DNA of 34,504 bases from Coriobacteriia bacterium (lineage in GTDB: Bacteria > Actinomycetota > Coriobacteriia > Anaerosomatales > PHET01), in assembly GCA_009779675.1 (NCBI GenBank), contig WRDS01000010.1, forward strand, positions 1-34,504, given 5' to 3'. The notes under the pieces are model-generated. The model saw only the letters and a list, made by a program, of their open reading frames with translations. It was not told where the DNA came from and did no database searches. Position 1 is the first letter of the stretch, and every line of letters begins with the position of its first letter. The position numbers and the translations under genes are program-made. Shown piece by piece: positions 1,716-30,875 of this stretch.

Positions 1716-2206
1716 GGGTCCTCCCCAGCGAAAACCGCTTGCCAGAAAACGCGATCAGCAAGCAGCAGCGCCAGACCCACTCCGATATAGACGGCACCAA
1801 GAATACCGGCACCGACTAGACCAGGATGCACGAAGATGTTGCGCAGGGTGATGCCCCCACCCATCATCACCGCTACCAGCAGCCAGGAGCGCGCCGAGAA
1901 GAACCCGAACACCTGGGCAGCACCCCGCTCGCGGATGCGTCGAACGGCCTTGCGTGCTACCTGATCCAGCAACGCACGCGACTTGATGACCCCTAAGGCC
2001 AAGCCTGCGGAAAGCGCCCAGGCGTGCCAGTATCGATCATGGAGGTAGCCGATGCCGCGCACAAGCAAAATAACGGCACCCACGAGCCACATGAGCGCCG
2101 CCAAAACAAACTGCATGCGTACACTGGCCTTTGGGATGAACTTCGATGCCTGTATGACCGCCTCCGGCTTTATCGACCTAAGACCCCAGCTCAAGCTCCA
2201 GCCCAA
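1712..2206 (-). CDS. Small membrane protein of unknown function
   Basis: The protein has 164 residues with four hydrophobic stretches (about 31-51, 60-75, 103-122 and 128-150) separated by a basic loop rich in arginine (KAVRRIRERG near 86-95). The listed start is a TTG at 2206 that overlaps the end of the upstream fusion-protein gene by 16 nt and has no clear Shine-Dalgarno. An ATG at residue 31 (position 2116) is the other candidate and would place the first membrane helix at the N-terminus. No catalytic motif is visible. The overlap with the upstream gene suggests co-transcription. I do not recognise the family. It is not the nucleotidyltransferase toxin AbiEii expected beside a canonical AbiEi antitoxin. 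Confidence 0.7.
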   Translation of the reverse strand: MGWSLSWGLRSIKPEAVIQASKFIPKASVRMQFVLAALMWLVGAVILLVRGIGYLHDRYWHAWALSAGLALGVIKSRALLDQVARKAVRRIRERGAAQVFGFFSARSWLLVAVMMGGGITLRNIFVHPGLVGAGILGAVYIGVGLALLLADRVFWQAVFAGEDP

Positions 2207-4431
2207 ACCGGATGCACTTGTTCTAAAAGGAGCGCTACATCCGCATCGCCGCGCTGCCTGTAAGCACCGACGATGTCCTCAACCGATGACTCCTCGGGCA
2301 AGCATACCGCTTCAGCAAGATACTTCCTGGCAGCAGCCGCATCGGAGACTTCGGGCGCCCCGATGAGAGCCAGGGCATCCGCCAGCGGATCGCCTATCAA
2401 TGGCCGAGCAGAGATACACCTGAAGGTGCCATCGTCACGGATAGCCAAGAACACCTCTGCGCCTACCTTGATCCCATACTCTACCAAAAGCCGCCGGATA
2501 CTCCCAAGCGTAGGGCTTATCCCGGTCCAGGCCACCTTTTGCAACCCCAGCTCAGACTCGAGCTGCACTGTCTGGCCAAACCGGATGCAAAGAAGGGTGG
2601 CTACGGCCATGGGTGCCGGCATGCCACTGCCTCGAAGATGGTCCGAAGTGACCCTTATCCGGTAAACCCAGGCATCGGGCATCCGGTAAAACTTCTTCGT
2701 ATGCCCGGGCGCTTTAGTCGCCTCAAGCCCACAGGGGCCGATACTGCTGACTACACCATCCTTGCACTGGAAGGGAGGAGCGCCCGCATACGCCTTGACG
2801 CTGGTCTCACTGACGCCAAAAGCCACTGTCAACTCTGAGATCAGATCAGTGAGATAAATCGGCCCACCGCTTTTGTCCAACTTCTTCTTGATCTCTCCCC
2901 GAATGCCCGTATAGACTTCCAGCCCCCACTCTTTGAGCGCCCACGTCTCTCGGCCTGCACGCTCAAACCGCGGATCAGCGCTAAGCTGATTGGCGAGCGA
3001 CCTTGAATCCCGCTTATAGGCAAACAGGCCCACTATCTCCTCGGGAGAGAGAGGCTCGCCGACAACCGATAGGACAGCAGCAGCGTAATCCCCGACTGAT
3101 CGCGTTTGCGTACAGACGATGCCATCGGCAACTGCCAACCCGCAGTACTTCAGCCAAGCAGCACGGATATCAATGCTCCTTTGGAGGTCAAGCGACGACA
3201 GAAGTGTGACCTCTGCCAGATCCATAGCGCCGTACCCGTTGGAATGCTCGGCAACCCAGGAGAGCGTCGCCTCTTTTGCCGACGCTATAGTAGGTTTTGC
3301 ACACCAGCCATCAGCAATCTCGACCGATGAGTCGAGGACGTACAGGATGCGCCACGCTGGCTGCTGCACGGATATGACAGTCTCGGCAAAGGCTGGATAC
3401 TGCGACAGCACCTCATCCAAAGGCCGCACAAGAAAGTCTGACTCGCGAAAAACAGAAGCGGCTAGGTGAAGGAACTCATGCGGTTCGATCGCAGCATGAA
3501 ATGCCTCTTTGGCCTTGATCTCCAGCTGCCGAACGCGTTCCCTCGTTATCCCAAGCTCTTGGCCGACTTGCTCCAAAGTGGCTTTCTTCTCAGCAAATAG
3601 GCGTCTTGAAAGTATGTAGACCAAGCGGGAATCCAGCTCGATAATGGCCTCGTCAAGGCGCTCGGCTAGCGTTAGCCCGGCTTCACGCCCATTCAACAGG
3701 CCTGGTGCAAACAGGCGTTTCTGCGCTAAGGACGCACTCTTCGACGAACCAAACGGCAATGGCGCTCCGGCTATCGCCTGCTCTGTGAGCCCAAGCGTTG
3801 CCAGCCACGGCGTAATGCTCTGGAGGCCTTGCGCGGTTTGTTCCGTTTGGCTGGTCAGGCACGAGAAATCGGCAAGGAGGCTCGAGACCTTCTCGCGGTC
3901 AAGGCCCTCGACAACGCTGGCTACATTAGCGAGAAGCGATTGGTCGGCCCCGGCCCTGACCAGAAGATCGACAACAGTCTGTGCAGGCGTGGTAACCGGC
4001 AGGCCGTCCCAGATCATCACGCCGTCAGCAGGAAGCCTTCGAACACGAAAGACGAACTCGCCTCGCTGCGCCTGCTGGCGTGCAAGGACCGTGAACTCGA
4101 AGGGCTCTGGCGCGGAGCTGCTAGCACCTAACAGATGAGCGGCGGTTGCTCCGGAGACAACCTCATCCGGATGCGCAGCTGCACAGCGCTCCTTCGCGGT
4201 CAGCTTTGGGTTAAGCGACAACCAGGCCGCCCTGATCCCCTCAAAACGATCTGCGGGAACCCCGGCAGTCCGATAAACCCCATGCCCCAGATGCTCCAGC
4301 TGACCTTTATCGGCTAGCTGGAAAAAAACATCCGGTTCAATACCGTTACGGACAGCTTGCACAGCCGTCGCCATTCCCCACTGCGAAGCAGCAAGGCCTT
4401 CAAGCAACCTAAATGCGTCAGTCTTTCCCAT
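2191..4431 (-). CDS. AbiEi-like winged-helix protein fused to a sigma-70 region-4 HTH
   Basis: The protein has 746 residues. Residues 1-170 look like AbiEi-type antitoxin/regulators: an N-terminal winged helix ending in LEHLGHGVYRTAG, then an AAWLSLNP helix, VVSGATAAHLLG and the DGLPVTTPAQTVVDLL motif. Residues about 254-310 carry a sigma-70 region-4-like helix-turn-helix (ATLEQVGQELGITRERVRQL), the part that reads -35 elements. The remainder holds winged-helix-like modules (RFERAGRETWALKEWGLE; FGVSETSVKAYAGAPPF) known from actinobacterial 'sigma-factor-like HTH' proteins. Regions 2 and 3 of a true sigma factor are absent, so it is probably a regulator or defence-linked DNA-binding protein. 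A TACAAT -10 ends 6 nt before the ATG and there is no Shine-Dalgarno, so the mRNA may be leaderless. Function is inferred from domains only. Confidence 0.75.
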   Translation of the reverse strand: MGKTDAFRLLEGLAASQWGMATAVQAVRNGIEPDVFFQLADKGQLEHLGHGVYRTAGVPADRFEGIRAAWLSLNPKLTAKERCAAAHPDEVVSGATAAHLLGASSSAPEPFEFTVLARQQAQRGEFVFRVRRLPADGVMIWDGLPVTTPAQTVVDLLVRAGADQSLLANVASVVEGLDREKVSSLLADFSCLTSQTEQTAQGLQSITPWLATLGLTEQAIAGAPLPFGSSKSASLAQKRLFAPGLLNGREAGLTLAERLDEAIIELDSRLVYILSRRLFAEKKATLEQVGQELGITRERVRQLEIKAKEAFHAAIEPHEFLHLAASVFRESDFLVRPLDEVLSQYPAFAETVISVQQPAWRILYVLDSSVEIADGWCAKPTIASAKEATLSWVAEHSNGYGAMDLAEVTLLSSLDLQRSIDIRAAWLKYCGLAVADGIVCTQTRSVGDYAAAVLSVVGEPLSPEEIVGLFAYKRDSRSLANQLSADPRFERAGRETWALKEWGLEVYTGIRGEIKKKLDKSGGPIYLTDLISELTVAFGVSETSVKAYAGAPPFQCKDGVVSSIGPCGLEATKAPGHTKKFYRMPDAWVYRIRVTSDHLRGSGMPAPMAVATLLCIRFGQTVQLESELGLQKVAWTGISPTLGSIRRLLVEYGIKVGAEVFLAIRDDGTFRCISARPLIGDPLADALALIGAPEVSDAAAARKYLAEAVCLPEESSVEDIVGAYRQRGDADVALLLEQVHPVWAGA

Positions 4432-9671: not shown

Positions 9672-10565
9672 ATGACCGAGTCCGCCGACAATGCCGTCCA
9701 AGAGGCCGCCCCAAAACCGCAGCGTGATCAGGCAACCGTTGCCGCCATTGTAATGGCGGTGATTGTGCTGTGTGTCGGTTTGGGGCTGACAGCGCTGTTC
9801 TGGGCACCTCTGCCCGCAGCCACGCCGGTAAAGACACCTGCATCCGGTACCAGCCAAAAAAACGTAGGGCCGTCTTCCGAGGCCGAGAATCCTGAGCCTG
9901 GGTCTGGGTCTGCTGCCACCCAGGTTCCGGCTGCTACCCCGATCTTTGCAAACTACAAGTCGCTTCAGCTGCATCTTCCCGTCGCCGTTGAGTCGCTCTC
10001 TGAAATAGGCTTCCATCAGGCATCTTATGGCTGGGCCCTGCCAATCGAAACGCCTCTTCCCGACGCAGACATGAAGGCGGCGAAGGGCAAGGGAACCGGC
10101 AGAGACGCTACCAAGCAGCCTTCGGGTGACGGTGCCACCCTTATCGGCTCGGTGCTGAGGATGTGGCGCAACGGTCGCTCGGGCGAGCCGAATACCGCTG
10201 TCGACATTGCCGCCGAGCCAGGCACCCCGATCCTTGCACCGGTCGACGGCATCGTCGTTCTTGTAAAAGCGTATGACCTGTACGGGAACCCGGACATCCC
10301 GGATTACGAGGTACACATCCGCCCGAATGACATGCCCGATGTCGATATCGTTCTCATCCACATCGACAACCCTAAGGCCTCGGCAGGTGACACGGTCGTT
10401 GCCGGCGTGACACCGATCGGGGAGGTCCGCAAACTTGCGGGCAAGATGAACCTGCAGATCGGCGATTACATGACCGGCGAAGGCAATCATACGCACATGC
10501 AGGTCAACAACCCCAAAAACCCAGAGTACAAAGGGCTAGAAGGGGCGCTTAAAATCGATCCCTAG
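9672..10565 (+). CDS. Membrane-anchored M23-like (LytM) domain protein, probably non-catalytic
   Basis: 297 residues: a cytoplasmic lead (1-22), one membrane helix (about 23-48), a Pro/Ala/Ser-rich linker, then an extracellular domain of M23 (lysostaphin/LytM) type (about 170-290). The fold is recognisable by AEPGTPILAPVDGIVV and GNHTHMQV, where the HxH zinc ligands are kept. The first ligand motif HxxxD reads NTAVD, with Asn replacing His, and the central insert around YEVHIRPNDMPDVDIV is unusual. Zinc binding is therefore probably incomplete. Degenerate LytM proteins such as EnvC or NlpD activate other hydrolases, which is a reasonable but unproven role. It begins 8 nt after tldE and its 3' end overlaps the convergent DUF951 gene by 17 nt. 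Confidence 0.75.
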   Translation: MTESADNAVQEAAPKPQRDQATVAAIVMAVIVLCVGLGLTALFWAPLPAATPVKTPASGTSQKNVGPSSEAENPEPGSGSAATQVPAATPIFANYKSLQLHLPVAVESLSEIGFHQASYGWALPIETPLPDADMKAAKGKGTGRDATKQPSGDGATLIGSVLRMWRNGRSGEPNTAVDIAAEPGTPILAPVDGIVVLVKAYDLYGNPDIPDYEVHIRPNDMPDVDIVLIHIDNPKASAGDTVVAGVTPIGEVRKLAGKMNLQIGDYMTGEGNHTHMQVNNPKNPEYKGLEGALKIDP

Positions 10566-10854
10566 CGTTTTTTGCGCCTGCATCCCCTGCGGCACCTGCG
10601 TCCTCCGCGCCTGCGCTCCCTGCGCCCGTGCCCCCCGCGCCTGCACGCTCCCTGTCCTCGGCGCGCTGGATAAACCCTCTGAACCGCCGGTCGAACTCAT
10701 ACCGCTCAAGCATGACGCTGCGGCCACAACTACAGCAATGCAGACGGATATCGGCCCCGAGCCGCACAACCTCCCACTCGTTGGCTCCGCAAGGATGCGG
10801 TTTTTTGAGCCTCACTGTGTCCCCAAGCCCCACGGGCGTAATGGGGATTGCCAA
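10549..10854 (-). CDS. DUF951 family protein with extended Ala/Gly tail
   Basis: About 101 residues. The N-terminal 60 match the DUF951 pattern: VGLGDTVRLKKPHPCGANEW, then RLGADIRLHCCSCGRSVMLER, with paired cysteines and an R-x-x-FDRRFRGF end. I use a TTG at 10854 as start because GAGGGGG lies 9 nt upstream and the protein then begins like other family members. A GTG at 10863 is also possible, and the first in-frame ATG (10926) would overlap the regulator gene upstream and add an atypical stretch. After residue 65 comes a low-complexity tail rich in Ala, Gly, Glu and Asp, not usual for the family, encoded by degenerate GCGCCTGC repeats. The function of DUF951 is unknown. Cysteine spacing hints at a small metal- or nucleic-acid-binding domain. 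Confidence 0.8.
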   Translation of the reverse strand: MAIPITPVGLGDTVRLKKPHPCGANEWEVVRLGADIRLHCCSCGRSVMLERYEFDRRFRGFIQRAEDRERAGAGGTGAGSAGAEDAGAAGDAGAKNARDRF

Positions 10855-10879
10855 CCGTCCCACCCCCCTCGTAAAACAC

Positions 10880-11530
10880 TCAGATCCCGATCGCCTCTCG
10901 AAACTGGCGTGCCTGGCGACGGGCAACGGGAATCCGGGTCTTGCCTCGGTCGTCCATGACGATCAGGCAGCTGCCACTTCGTCGCTGTACCTCTTTGATT
11001 CGATCCAGGTTCACCAGATGGCTGCGATGCACGCGCATAAAAGACTCAGGCGCAAGCCGCTCCTCAAGCCCGGCAAGCGTCATATCGACAATGAAGCTGT
11101 CCTCCGAGGTGTACGCGTACGTCTGTTTGTAATGGGCTGACAGAAAATGGATCTCCTCTACTGCAAGGAAAATGATCCGCGTGCCGTCGCAAACCGCAAG
11201 TTTGTCAGACCCTACGCCTCCGCGTACGCCTTCGTCCGAACGGAAGGTGCCCTGACGTGTCAACCCGTGCATAAGGCATCTTGCCTGACGGGTCAACGAG
11301 GCAGCATCCACCGGCTTTGAGGTGCCGAGGACGACGAGGTCAAAGGGCTGCCCCTCTTTGCAAAGCGCAGCCATATCCTCATCGCACCCCGTCATGCAGA
11401 CCACCGCCACCTCGGCATCAACGCCAGCCGACGTGATCCCGCGCAGCAGCGCCTCGCGTGCCGCAGCATCGTCCTCAACGATAAGCACGCGCATAGGCAC
11501 GTGCGGTGTCCGTGGGCAGGGCTCAGACAT
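10880..11530 (-). CDS. LytTR-family regulator with a degenerate, shortened receiver domain
   Basis: 216 residues. Residues 13-85 start like a response-regulator receiver (MRVLIVEDDAAAREAL), but the phospho-acceptor position in DLVVLGTSKP is Gly instead of Asp, and the strands that would carry the conserved Thr/Ser and Lys are missing. Residues about 108-215 form a LytTR DNA-binding domain (VEEIHFLSAHYKQTYAYT, FMRVHRSHLVNLDRIKEV, RIPVARRQARQFRE). It is therefore likely a phosphorylation-independent transcription factor. The ATG overlaps the stop of nfnB by 8 nt, so it is translationally coupled to a redox enzyme. An internal ATG at residue 13 is an alternative start. No histidine kinase is adjacent. 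It may sense redox or metabolic state or autoregulate the operon (inference). Confidence 0.85.
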   Translation of the reverse strand: MSEPCPRTPHVPMRVLIVEDDAAAREALLRGITSAGVDAEVAVVCMTGCDEDMAALCKEGQPFDLVVLGTSKPVDAASLTRQARCLMHGLTRQGTFRSDEGVRGGVGSDKLAVCDGTRIIFLAVEEIHFLSAHYKQTYAYTSEDSFIVDMTLAGLEERLAPESFMRVHRSHLVNLDRIKEVQRRSGSCLIVMDDRGKTRIPVARRQARQFREAIGI

Positions 11531-13016
11531 GACCCGTCCCCGCCCTCAAGGCGCGATCCATGGCAGCCGCCGCACGTTTACCAGCGCCCATCGCAAGGAT
11601 GACCGTGGCCGCGCCGGTGACTATGTCGCCGCCTGCCCATACCCCAGAAAGCGAGGTCGCACCGTCCTCATCGGAAACGACGTAGCCCCTGGGCGATATA
11701 GCGATGCCCGCTGCGGCCGAGGCCACCAACGGGTTCGCACGGGAACCCACCGCGATGATGACGGTGTCGCACTCGGCATTAAACTCAGATCCTGAAACGG
11801 GCACCGGCGACCGGCGATCGGAAAAGTCCGCCTCTCCAAGCTCCATTCGAATGGCTTTTACCCCGATGACCCGCCCGTCATGACCGATGACCCGGGTCGG
11901 CGCGGCGAGCATCTCGAAGCGCACCCCCTCCTCGAGCGCATGCGCGACCTCCTCGCGTCTCGCCGGCATCTCGCGCTCAGTGCGGCGGTACATGAGCACG
12001 ACTTGCTCGGCACCAAGCCGAACCGCGGTACGCGCCGCATCCATCGCAACGTTACCGCCGCCCACGACCACGACCCTGCAGCCACGCTTGATCGGCGTGT
12101 CTGTGCGCGGGAACTCGTAAGCACGCATAAGGTTCACGCGGGTCAAGAACTCATTTGCCGAGTAAACACCGGCGAGATTCTCCCCCGAGACACCCATGAA
12201 CACGGGGAGCCCCGCGCCGCTGCCCACAAAGACCGCCTCGAAGCCCTGCTCGGCGATCAGCTCTTCGATGGTCGAAAGACGCCCCACGACGTGGTTGGTG
12301 ACGACCGTGACACCCATCCGTTCAAGCAGCGCGATCTCGGCTGACACGATGCTTTTAGGAAGCCGGAACTCGGGGATGCCGTACACGAGCACCCCACCGG
12401 CAGCATGAAGCGACTCGAAGACGGTGACCTCATGGCCGAGCCGAGCAAGCTCGCCGGCGCAAGCGAGGCCCGCTGGGCCGCTACCTACGATCGCACACCT
12501 CCCGCCGGTGCCTGGGGCGATCATCTCGGGCATGCAGCGCGACCCGGCATCACGCGCAAGGTCCCAGTCCCCTAAAAAGCGTTCCAACCGTCCGATGGCA
12601 ATCTGCTCGCCCCTGCGGGCAAGCACGCATGCAGACTCGCACTGCTCCTCCTGCGGGCACACCCTTCCGCAGACAGCTGGCAGGGCATTGCGCGCCTTGA
12701 TGATAGCGATCCCCTCGGCAAAATCGCCGTCGATGACTTCGCGGATGAACCCGCGGATGTCGATACCCACCGGACAGCCGTTCTGGCAGGTCGGATTGGC
12801 GCACTGCAGACAGCGCCGTGCCTCGGATACCGCCTCAGCCTCAGAGTACCCGAGCGCAACCTCGGCAAAACCACCGATCCGCTCGGCTGGATCGCGTTCG
12901 GGCATCGGCGTACGCGCCCCTCGGACAGGCCTATGGCGCTCGCGCTCGGCGGGTGTGCGGCGACCTGGCGCGTGCTGACCGGATGCGCCTCGATCCGACT
13001 CATCTAGGTGTGACAC
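11523..13016 (-). CDS. NfnB / GltA-type NADPH-dependent oxidoreductase (glutamate synthase small-subunit family)
   Basis: 497 residues. The N-terminus holds two cysteine clusters for [4Fe-4S] centres (CLQCANPTCQNGCPVG near 69-84, CGRVCPQEEQCESAC near 115-129). Two dinucleotide folds follow: GSGPAGLACAGELARLGHEV binds FAD, VVVVGGGNVAMDAARTAVRLG binds NADPH, and the family ending is GVWAGGDIVTGAATVILAMGAGKRAA. In anaerobes this protein pairs with NfnA as the electron-bifurcating NADH-dependent ferredoxin:NADP oxidoreductase. It can also act as a glutamate synthase small subunit, but no GltB large subunit is nearby, so the Nfn role is favoured. Start is GTG 13016, overlapping the nfnA stop by 13 nt. 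An ATG at 12905 with GAGGGG upstream is the alternative. Confidence 0.88.
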   Translation of the reverse strand: MSHLDESDRGASGQHAPGRRTPAERERHRPVRGARTPMPERDPAERIGGFAEVALGYSEAEAVSEARRCLQCANPTCQNGCPVGIDIRGFIREVIDGDFAEGIAIIKARNALPAVCGRVCPQEEQCESACVLARRGEQIAIGRLERFLGDWDLARDAGSRCMPEMIAPGTGGRCAIVGSGPAGLACAGELARLGHEVTVFESLHAAGGVLVYGIPEFRLPKSIVSAEIALLERMGVTVVTNHVVGRLSTIEELIAEQGFEAVFVGSGAGLPVFMGVSGENLAGVYSANEFLTRVNLMRAYEFPRTDTPIKRGCRVVVVGGGNVAMDAARTAVRLGAEQVVLMYRRTEREMPARREEVAHALEEGVRFEMLAAPTRVIGHDGRVIGVKAIRMELGEADFSDRRSPVPVSGSEFNAECDTVIIAVGSRANPLVASAAAGIAISPRGYVVSDEDGATSLSGVWAGGDIVTGAATVILAMGAGKRAAAAMDRALRAGTGHV

Positions 13017-13843
13017 GAGCAGCTCCGGGCAAACTCGGCATCGGCCTCACGTTCCTCATCGAGATAGATGCGCTGGCGGCTCATGAACTCCTCCCAATCC
13101 ACCGCATGCCCATCGAAGTCCGGCCCGTCCACGCAGCCAAACCGCGTCTCCCCTCCAACGCTCACCCTGCACGCCCCGCACATTCCGGTGCCATCCACCA
13201 TGATCGGGTTCAGCGAGACTGTTATGGGCATCCCAAACCCTTCTGCGGTAAGGGTGCAGGACTTCATCATAGCCGCCGGCCCGACGGCAAACACGTGATC
13301 GATGGACCCGGTCTCGGCCATCCGTTTGAGCGGGGCAGTCACAAGCCCCTTCTCTCCAGCCGAACCGTCGTCGGTGACAATGGCGAGCGACGCAAGCGAC
13401 AGCGCCCGGAGTTCCTGCTCAAGCACAACCAGGCCAGCGTTGCGCGCACCCACGATCACGTGCACCTCGCATCCGGCCTCAGTCATGCCGCGTGCGACAG
13501 GGTAGGCCGCCGCTACCCCGACCCCTCCCCCCACCACTGCCACCCGGCCAAACCCATCAAGCCGAGTGGGAACGCCGAGCGGCCCGACGACATCAGCGAT
13601 CTCGTCGCCGGGGACAAGATGCGACAGCCTATGCGTGGTCTTGCCCACCCGCATGTAAATGGTCCGGATCCAGCCTTCCTCGGCGCTCCAATCCGAGAAC
13701 GTGAGCGGAATGCGCTCGCCGCCCTCGTCCAATCGAAGCATCAAGAACTGCCCGGGTTGGACGCGACGGGCGATATCAGGCGCTAAAACGCCCATTTCAA
13801 AGACCGTGTCGGACAGCTGGCGTGTGTGGATTATGGGAAGCAA
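13004..13843 (-). CDS. NfnA-type ferredoxin:NADP oxidoreductase subunit (FAD, 2Fe-2S)
   Basis: About 279 residues of the PyrK/FNR-like family. The N-terminal barrel has RIPLTFSD for FAD, the Rossmann part has VVGGGVGVAAAYPVARGM for NAD(H), and the C-terminal MVDGTGMCGACRVSVGG with FGCVDGPDFDGHAVDW supplies the [2Fe-2S] ligands, including the Asp seen in NfnA proteins. With the next gene it should form the NfnAB complex exchanging electrons between NADH, NADPH and ferredoxin. The region just upstream has GGAGG followed closely by two TTG codons (13846 and 13843). I take the second because its spacing is less cramped. It is first in a four-gene overlapping set ending in DUF951. A TATACT (13893-13898, minus strand) may be its -10, but no -35 is convincing. 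Confidence 0.88.
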   Translation of the reverse strand: MLPIIHTRQLSDTVFEMGVLAPDIARRVQPGQFLMLRLDEGGERIPLTFSDWSAEEGWIRTIYMRVGKTTHRLSHLVPGDEIADVVGPLGVPTRLDGFGRVAVVGGGVGVAAAYPVARGMTEAGCEVHVIVGARNAGLVVLEQELRALSLASLAIVTDDGSAGEKGLVTAPLKRMAETGSIDHVFAVGPAAMMKSCTLTAEGFGMPITVSLNPIMVDGTGMCGACRVSVGGETRFGCVDGPDFDGHAVDWEEFMSRQRIYLDEEREADAEFARSCSCHT

Positions 13844-13858
13844 CAATCCTCCATTGGA

Positions 13859-13868
13859 TTAGCGCTAA
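13859..13868. promoter_or_regulatory. TTAGCGCTAA palindrome in the nfnA leader
   Basis: A perfect 10-bp palindrome lies between the candidate TATACT -10 (13893-13898) and the GGAGG ribosome-binding site (13848-13852) of nfnA. That position suits a repressor site; the downstream LytTR regulator is one of several possible binders. Confidence 0.35.
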
Positions 13869-13950
13869 AGTAGTGAAATGGGAGACCGAAACAGTATAGC
13901 AACAGGTTTTTCGGCAAAGCGCATCACCACCTGCTCATCGCACATCCGCC

Positions 13951-25289: not shown

Positions 25290-30875
<5,586 letters not shown>

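Follow-up and report, generated by a model that had tools for sequence, protein, structure and literature searches.

The locus described here raises the question of how a LytTR-type transcription regulator whose receiver domain has lost its phosphorylation site could work directly behind the genes of an electron-bifurcating transhydrogenase. It lies in a stretch of 34,504 nucleotides (nt) from a Coriobacteriia bacterium (assembly GCA_009779675.1, contig WRDS01000010.1, positions 1 to 34,504), called the window throughout, from a genome of 1.89 Mb in 105 contigs at 94.2% completeness. The original prediction, made from the letters of the window, read nfnA, nfnB and the regulator as one operon, called the regulator phosphorylation-blind and suggested redox-linked control of transcription. 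Our preferred answer, to which we assign a probability of roughly 0.55, is that the gene encodes a LytTR regulator that works independently of phosphorylation, descends from an orphan response regulator and sits beside an NfnI-type operon. For comparison we used 69 genomes of the order Anaerosomatales, including that of the window; three of the others belong to the same family and none to the same genus. This order, formerly OPB41 (Coriobacteriia), is described in PMC9686372, in the text of which the term Nfn does not occur.

The open reading frame (ORF) at 10880..11530 on the minus strand was assigned as a LytTR regulator with a remnant receiver from the ORF itself, its Pfam LytTR match and its position in the LytTR tree. 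Strong matches to it (expectation value E<=4.2e-28) occur in 62 of the 69 genomes including the window's, that is, in 61 of the 68 others, while seven genomes have none. The phospho-accepting aspartate (phospho-Asp) is kept in all 61 relatives covering the site, namely all 59 that were aligned, in motifs such as LDIMMP, plus the two genomes that we label G044 and G027; the fragment in G056 does not span the site and was not counted. The Lys-Pro motif is likewise present in all 59 aligned relatives. The window regulator is the sole exception, without the phospho-Asp in every alignment made, and the Pfam receiver model PF00072 stays below its cut-off there (13.6 versus 30.2 bits, E 0.076). The window copy is thus unable to serve as a standard phosphorylation-dependent output, just as the original prediction had it. 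The further idea that blindness is a property of the Nfn-linked regulator has to be given up, as intact receivers, the outcome set beforehand as refuting it, are what all 61 relatives carry. The blind receiver is a loss in a single lineage and not a property of the system.

That the remnant derives from a receiver at all rests on orthology, i.e., on locus position and the LytTR tree. One part of it, residues 13-35 (MRVLIVEDDAAAREALL...; 11426..11494, minus strand), is clearly similar to the relatives' receivers and corresponds to strand 1 and helix 1 (score 20.0, with 0/200 shuffles as good). Residues 36-108 taken as a block fit neither half of a receiver, and signal was obtained there in single blocks only. 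Among eight blocks tried, the only convincing one beyond strand 1 and helix 1 is residues 71-87 (SKPVDAASLTRQARCLM; 11270..11320, minus strand), a probable Lys-Pro motif plus helix 5 that 8/5000 shuffles matched as well. A possible strand 3, residues 63-69 (FDLVVLG; 11324..11344, minus strand), which would put Gly at the phospho-Asp position, is weak (174/5000 shuffles as good); a strand is drawn here in both AlphaFold models, at a low predicted local distance difference test score (pLDDT).

When the alignment was allowed one free jump, two main solutions scored 18.5 and 15.7 against a shuffle maximum of 13.9 (0/60 as good as 18.5), dropping 46 or 49 profile positions. They differ in the segment that is lost, which would be strand 2 through helix 3 in one case and, in the other, the stretch that begins right behind the Asp position and reaches strand 5. 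SKP of the window is placed on TKP of the relatives by the MAFFT alignment, which corresponds to the first of these solutions, and by the second one as well. The original prediction had stated that the later half of the fold is lacking. The receiver is indeed incomplete, with its middle apparently excised, but that wording does not stand because the Lys-Pro/helix-5 end matches residues 71-87; the loss of about 50 residues from the interior is the better fit, with moderate support. AlphaFold folds the remnant as strand-helix-strand-helix-strand-helix at low confidence, there being no alignment rows for this part: the model made without an alignment had a mean pLDDT of 46.8, and with LytTR rows only, the LytTR blocks reached 71-91 and the remnant about 40-64. 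Residues 10-93 of the model align to whole receivers at Z 5-7, a level (below 8) at which the similarity may reflect a common arrangement and nothing more. A frameshift relic was considered and rejected: when the remaining frames were translated and searched by tblastn with proteins of the relatives, all off-frame matches were short (the best of the 25 listed having E 8.5e-4), and by eye no receiver half was recognizable among them.

The LytTR DNA-binding domain (residues 118-214; 10889..11179, minus strand) tells a different story. It scores 87 bits with Pfam PF04397 (cut-off 22.6), and its model aligns to 3d6w at Z 17.8 and to DNA-bound AgrA (3bs1) at Z 13.6 with VIA-align. In the LytTR tree it falls inside the nfn-linked clade (support 98/93), where its end branch measures 1.24 versus a median of 0.075, about 16 times as much. 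It is 50% identical to its relatives, which are 77% identical among themselves, and in identity it lies furthest out of the genes tested (z of -10.6, versus -4.9 for nfnB, -3.8 for nfnA and -2.0 for pth). Against a profile of 21 other LytTR proteins of the order it still reaches 93.7 bits, where the relatives reach 105.1±5.0. Relatives' LytTR domains that were neutrally decayed to the same identity, in a simulation that forbade stops, applied no selection and so tests plain drift only, scored 22.7±10.7 bits and at most 51.5, none of 200 reaching 93.7. Of 27 columns that both LytTR groups conserve, the window domain retains 22; of 35 that are conserved only in the nfn-linked clade, it retains 20. 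The frame is open, with a coding-like G+C content by codon position. The near-normal profile score and the retention of shared columns argue that selection still maintains the DNA-binding fold, whereas clade-specific residues appear to have been let go.

The linkage to nfnB, which the original prediction expected to recur in related genomes, does so. A same-strand nfnB gene lies directly upstream of the regulator in 55 of 59 relatives' loci, a count made on 59 of the 61 relatives with an ortholog. In the four others, nfnB and the regulator share a contig but are separated by 8-12 kb (G037, G039), the regulator is near a contig start with nfnB on another contig (G041), or the regulator is on a small contig with a partial nfnB on another (G018). 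In G027, one of the seven genomes without a strong match, a piece of the regulator adjoins nfnB at the end of a contig. The window gene is the positional ortholog of this response regulator, which the order as a whole has next to nfnAB. No ortholog was found outside the order among 227 genomes of the class at E<=1e-35, and a scan of named genomes returned 14 loci, five of them, in actinobacterial records, matching closely along most of the protein and nine being weak N-terminal matches elsewhere. A joint loss of nfnAB and the regulator, both absent in G001, G058, G061, G043 and G035, cannot be claimed, and these absences cannot be judged, because the contig breaks at the locus in G001, G061 and G035 and pth was also not found in G058 and G043.

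Several relatives show local variations on this arrangement. Other genes fill the stretch behind nfnB in G033, G037 and G039 (our loci L158 3464-8284 in G033, L129 and L130), those of G033 being glycosyltransferase-like by eye. G036 has an ApbE-type flavin transferase gene on the opposite strand between an M23 peptidase gene and nfnA (L038 3094-4161, minus strand). In G021 the regulator is tandemly duplicated, its first copy truncated inside LytTR (L044 2274-3688, plus strand), which could be an assembly repeat.

In the window, nfnA (13004..13846, with a TTG start at 13846 or 13843), nfnB (11523..13016) and the regulator follow one another head to tail, all on the minus strand. The ORF coordinates give overlaps of 13 nt for nfnA/nfnB and 8 nt for nfnB/regulator, the same values as first proposed, the latter hinging on the regulator starting at its first ATG. 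A GGGGA stretch upstream favors that start; the second in-frame ATG (11494, MRVLIVEDD) fits the relatives' N-terminus better and would leave a gap of 28 nt to nfnB. The spacing in the relatives, with regulator starts picked by hand from candidates, has a median of 114.5 nt and a range of 58-741 nt, four values exceeding 500 (54 of the 55 linked loci), versus -8 or +28 nt in the window. The shorter spacing suggests that coupling may be tighter in the window than in its relatives. On its other side, the regulator is directly followed by a DUF951 gene (10549-10926, minus strand; 89 bits). In G002, G003 and G036, an opposite-strand gene (DUF711, as shown for G003, L066) separates the two; as the window has none, its lineage has closed this gap.

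What signal the regulator would receive was approached through kinases and cysteines. One LytS-type kinase (PF06580) per genome is present in 63 of the 69 genomes, and 57 of these 63 have it adjoining their other LytTR gene (57/59 outside the window's family). Within that family (G000, G001, G002, G003), the kinase and the other LytTR gene lie on separate contigs in four of four cases (C53 and C7 in G000). Reading the ORFs around the nfn-linked regulator by eye in three relatives revealed no kinase, HisKA-type kinases elsewhere not having been searched for. With no neighboring kinase, the nfn-linked regulator looks like an orphan. The window regulator has six Cys in 203 residues, at positions 45, 49, 57 and 85 in the remnant and at 114 and 188 in or next to LytTR, whereas 59 relatives average 0.37 and have no more than 2. 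Among nine proteins compared, the gain is limited to the regulator, and its eight neighbors are within or near the relatives' range.

Taken together, we would reconstruct the history of the locus as follows. Across the order, nfnAB is accompanied by an orphan LytTR response regulator with an intact receiver, about 115 nt behind nfnB and with no kinase seen beside it. In the window lineage, some 50 receiver residues including the phospho-Asp would have been lost in frame, the regulator gene would have closed up against nfnB, and the LytTR domain would have kept most of the residues that all LytTR domains need while changing many of those special to its clade. The product would most likely be a phosphorylation-independent transcription factor that binds DNA without phosphate and whose activity follows its own amount, which co-transcription and translational coupling with nfnAB would determine. 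We infer that nfnAB or redox genes may be among its targets.

Several observations weigh against this reading. The genome is fast-evolving in general, its other LytTR domain having an end branch of 0.44, and the pairing with nfnB is not obligate, as G033 keeps nfnAB and lacks the regulator, with other genes after nfnB, and G037 and G039 have the two genes apart. The neighborhood as a whole, including the flanking prs, rplY, pth and two M23 peptidase genes, is conserved, so the linkage may partly be general synteny and is weaker evidence for function. Upstream of nfnA, in 49 regions, few positions beyond the -10 element are informative and no operator-like repeat was seen by eye. Finally, the truncated form occurs in no second genome, so that an assembly error or a very recent decay is possible. 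As for the former, an artefact of assembly or base calling that cut a piece out of an intact receiver gene would suit a single observation in a genome of many contigs, but the LytTR domain has also diverged from all relatives, which is unexpected from a local deletion artefact, and tblastn turned up no lost receiver half in a different frame; we regard it as highly improbable. Decay is the more serious matter, and we allow it a real if minor chance. A gene that has lost its receiver and whose rest is drifting to a pseudogene in a reduced genome would account for the long end branch, the six Cys, the barely recognizable residues 36-108 and the genome size. It would not account for a LytTR domain that scores like a working one, with no simulated decayed copy near it, or for the open frame with its coding-like composition.

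The same six Cys can be read another way, as a gained switch by which disulfide formation or metal binding would regulate the protein, making it a redox-sensing pseudo-receiver that reads the redox state set by Nfn. The restriction of the gain to the regulator, the adjoining redox enzyme genes and the existence of Cys-switched pseudo-receiver regulators such as RitR and HP1021 (among those covered in PMC12632262) speak for it. However, neutral drift at the G+C content of the window would give about 3% Cys, or about three per 98 residues, which explains the four of the remnant, and no relative shares the Cys pattern. The Cys thus seem to keep redox sensing possible without a preference over drift, and we consider this explanation unlikely; a more specific version, in which the phospho-acceptor segment was excised and the Cys-rich remnant (C45, C49, C57, C85, C114) became a redox input reading an Nfn-controlled state, we consider quite unlikely. 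The remnant might instead have been kept as a dimer or docking surface under the control of a protein partner, as recognizable similarity persists in strand 1, helix 1 and helix 5 and the model still aligns to whole receivers. That agreement is tempered by the low pLDDT of the remnant and by Z scores that may reflect only a common arrangement, and no partner gene was seen; it strikes us as a long shot. Our preference accordingly stays with a phosphorylation-independent regulator derived from an orphan response regulator.

The nfnA promoter of the window has the -10 element TATACT (13893..13898, minus strand). Of 49 nfnA upstream regions, 46 including that of the window allowed such an element to be anchored, which reads TATACT in 43 of the 46, TATAAT in two and GATACT in one. 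A promoter scan of the region returned one site versus 0.7 in shuffles, and this was not the nfnA promoter. The palindrome TTAGCGCTAA in the nfnA 5' leader (13859..13868) had been put forward as an operator; allowing one mismatch, it is slightly enriched in the window (three places versus 0.48 expected, 1/100 shuffles having as many). Nevertheless, it exists in the window only (1/49 nfnA upstream regions), and without conservation the proposal lapses.

The enzyme itself was correctly recognized from the outset, given that both subunits pass their family cut-offs, match Nfn and NfnI in the PDB and are encoded in the order nfnA-nfnB. NfnA (NfnS), the small flavin adenine dinucleotide (FAD)/[2Fe-2S] subunit, scores 361 bits with NCBIfam PRK06222 (cut-off 220), and NfnB (NfnL), the large FAD/2x[4Fe-4S] subunit, scores 565 bits with TIGR01316 (cut-off 472). 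For both, the closest solved structure is Thermotoga maritima Nfn (4ylf_A and 4ylf_B), followed by Pyrococcus furiosus NfnI: NfnB scores 531 and 469 bits with these, versus 441 with 5vj7, which we take to be NfnII/Xfn, and 274 with GltD, and NfnA scores 281 and 262 versus 197. The Fe-S motifs (DGTGMCGACRV and CGRVCPQEEQCE) align to 4ylf with Cys, Asp and Glu retained, the residues that act as cluster ligands being assigned on our assumption. The window enzyme is therefore a standard NfnI-type NADH-dependent ferredoxin:NADP+ oxidoreductase, predicted to work as an electron-bifurcating transhydrogenase.

Two further proteins of the window are worth recording. A 1861-residue protein (25290-30875, minus strand) has right-handed beta-helix repeats, is probably secreted and carries a matrixin-like stretch at its C-terminus (HELGHCLGLYHG; PF00413, 24.5 bits, cut-off 24). 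A 746-residue protein (2191-4431, minus strand) has AbiEi antitoxin-type domains ahead of sigma-70 region 4, an unusual combination.

Compared with known Nfn loci, those of T. maritima NfnAB/NfnSL (4ylf, 4yry) and P. furiosus NfnI (5jca), the window shares the nfnA-nfnB order, full-length alignment of both subunits and the Fe-S motifs, and differs in having a LytTR regulator as third gene. Rex-linked nfn clusters are described in the Nfn review (PMC6405883), and no description of an nfn-LytTR pairing was found in the literature searched, a search that was not exhaustive. A conserved nfnAB-LytTR pairing in a mostly uncultured order is thus a candidate for non-Rex transcriptional control linked to a bifurcating transhydrogenase. 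With the LytTR response regulators AgrA, ComE and BtsR, the window regulator has the LytTR domain in common, with a high structural match to AgrA and ComE, and its relatives have the full receiver as well; in contrast, its own receiver is excised and no LytS-type kinase gene lies beside it. LytTR Regulatory Systems such as HdrRM and BrsRM (PMC6193735) also use a LytTR regulator without phosphosignalling, but there a membrane inhibitor gene follows the regulator, where the window has the DUF951 gene.

A further parallel is offered by the bacterial pseudo-receivers, also called aspartate-less receivers. According to PMC12632262, 2.0% of PF00072 domains are without Asp, and only two of the 20 bacterial atypical regulators described are not orphans; the terms LytTR and LytR are absent from its main text. 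The window regulator resembles these proteins in having a domain without phospho-Asp that, judged by orthology, derives from a receiver and, like most characterized atypical regulators, appears to be an orphan, though its remnant is too degraded for the PF00072 cut-off. The locus bears on how pseudo-receivers arise and work, and it is of moderate interest here because intact and blind regulators, found at one locus in related families, can be compared directly.

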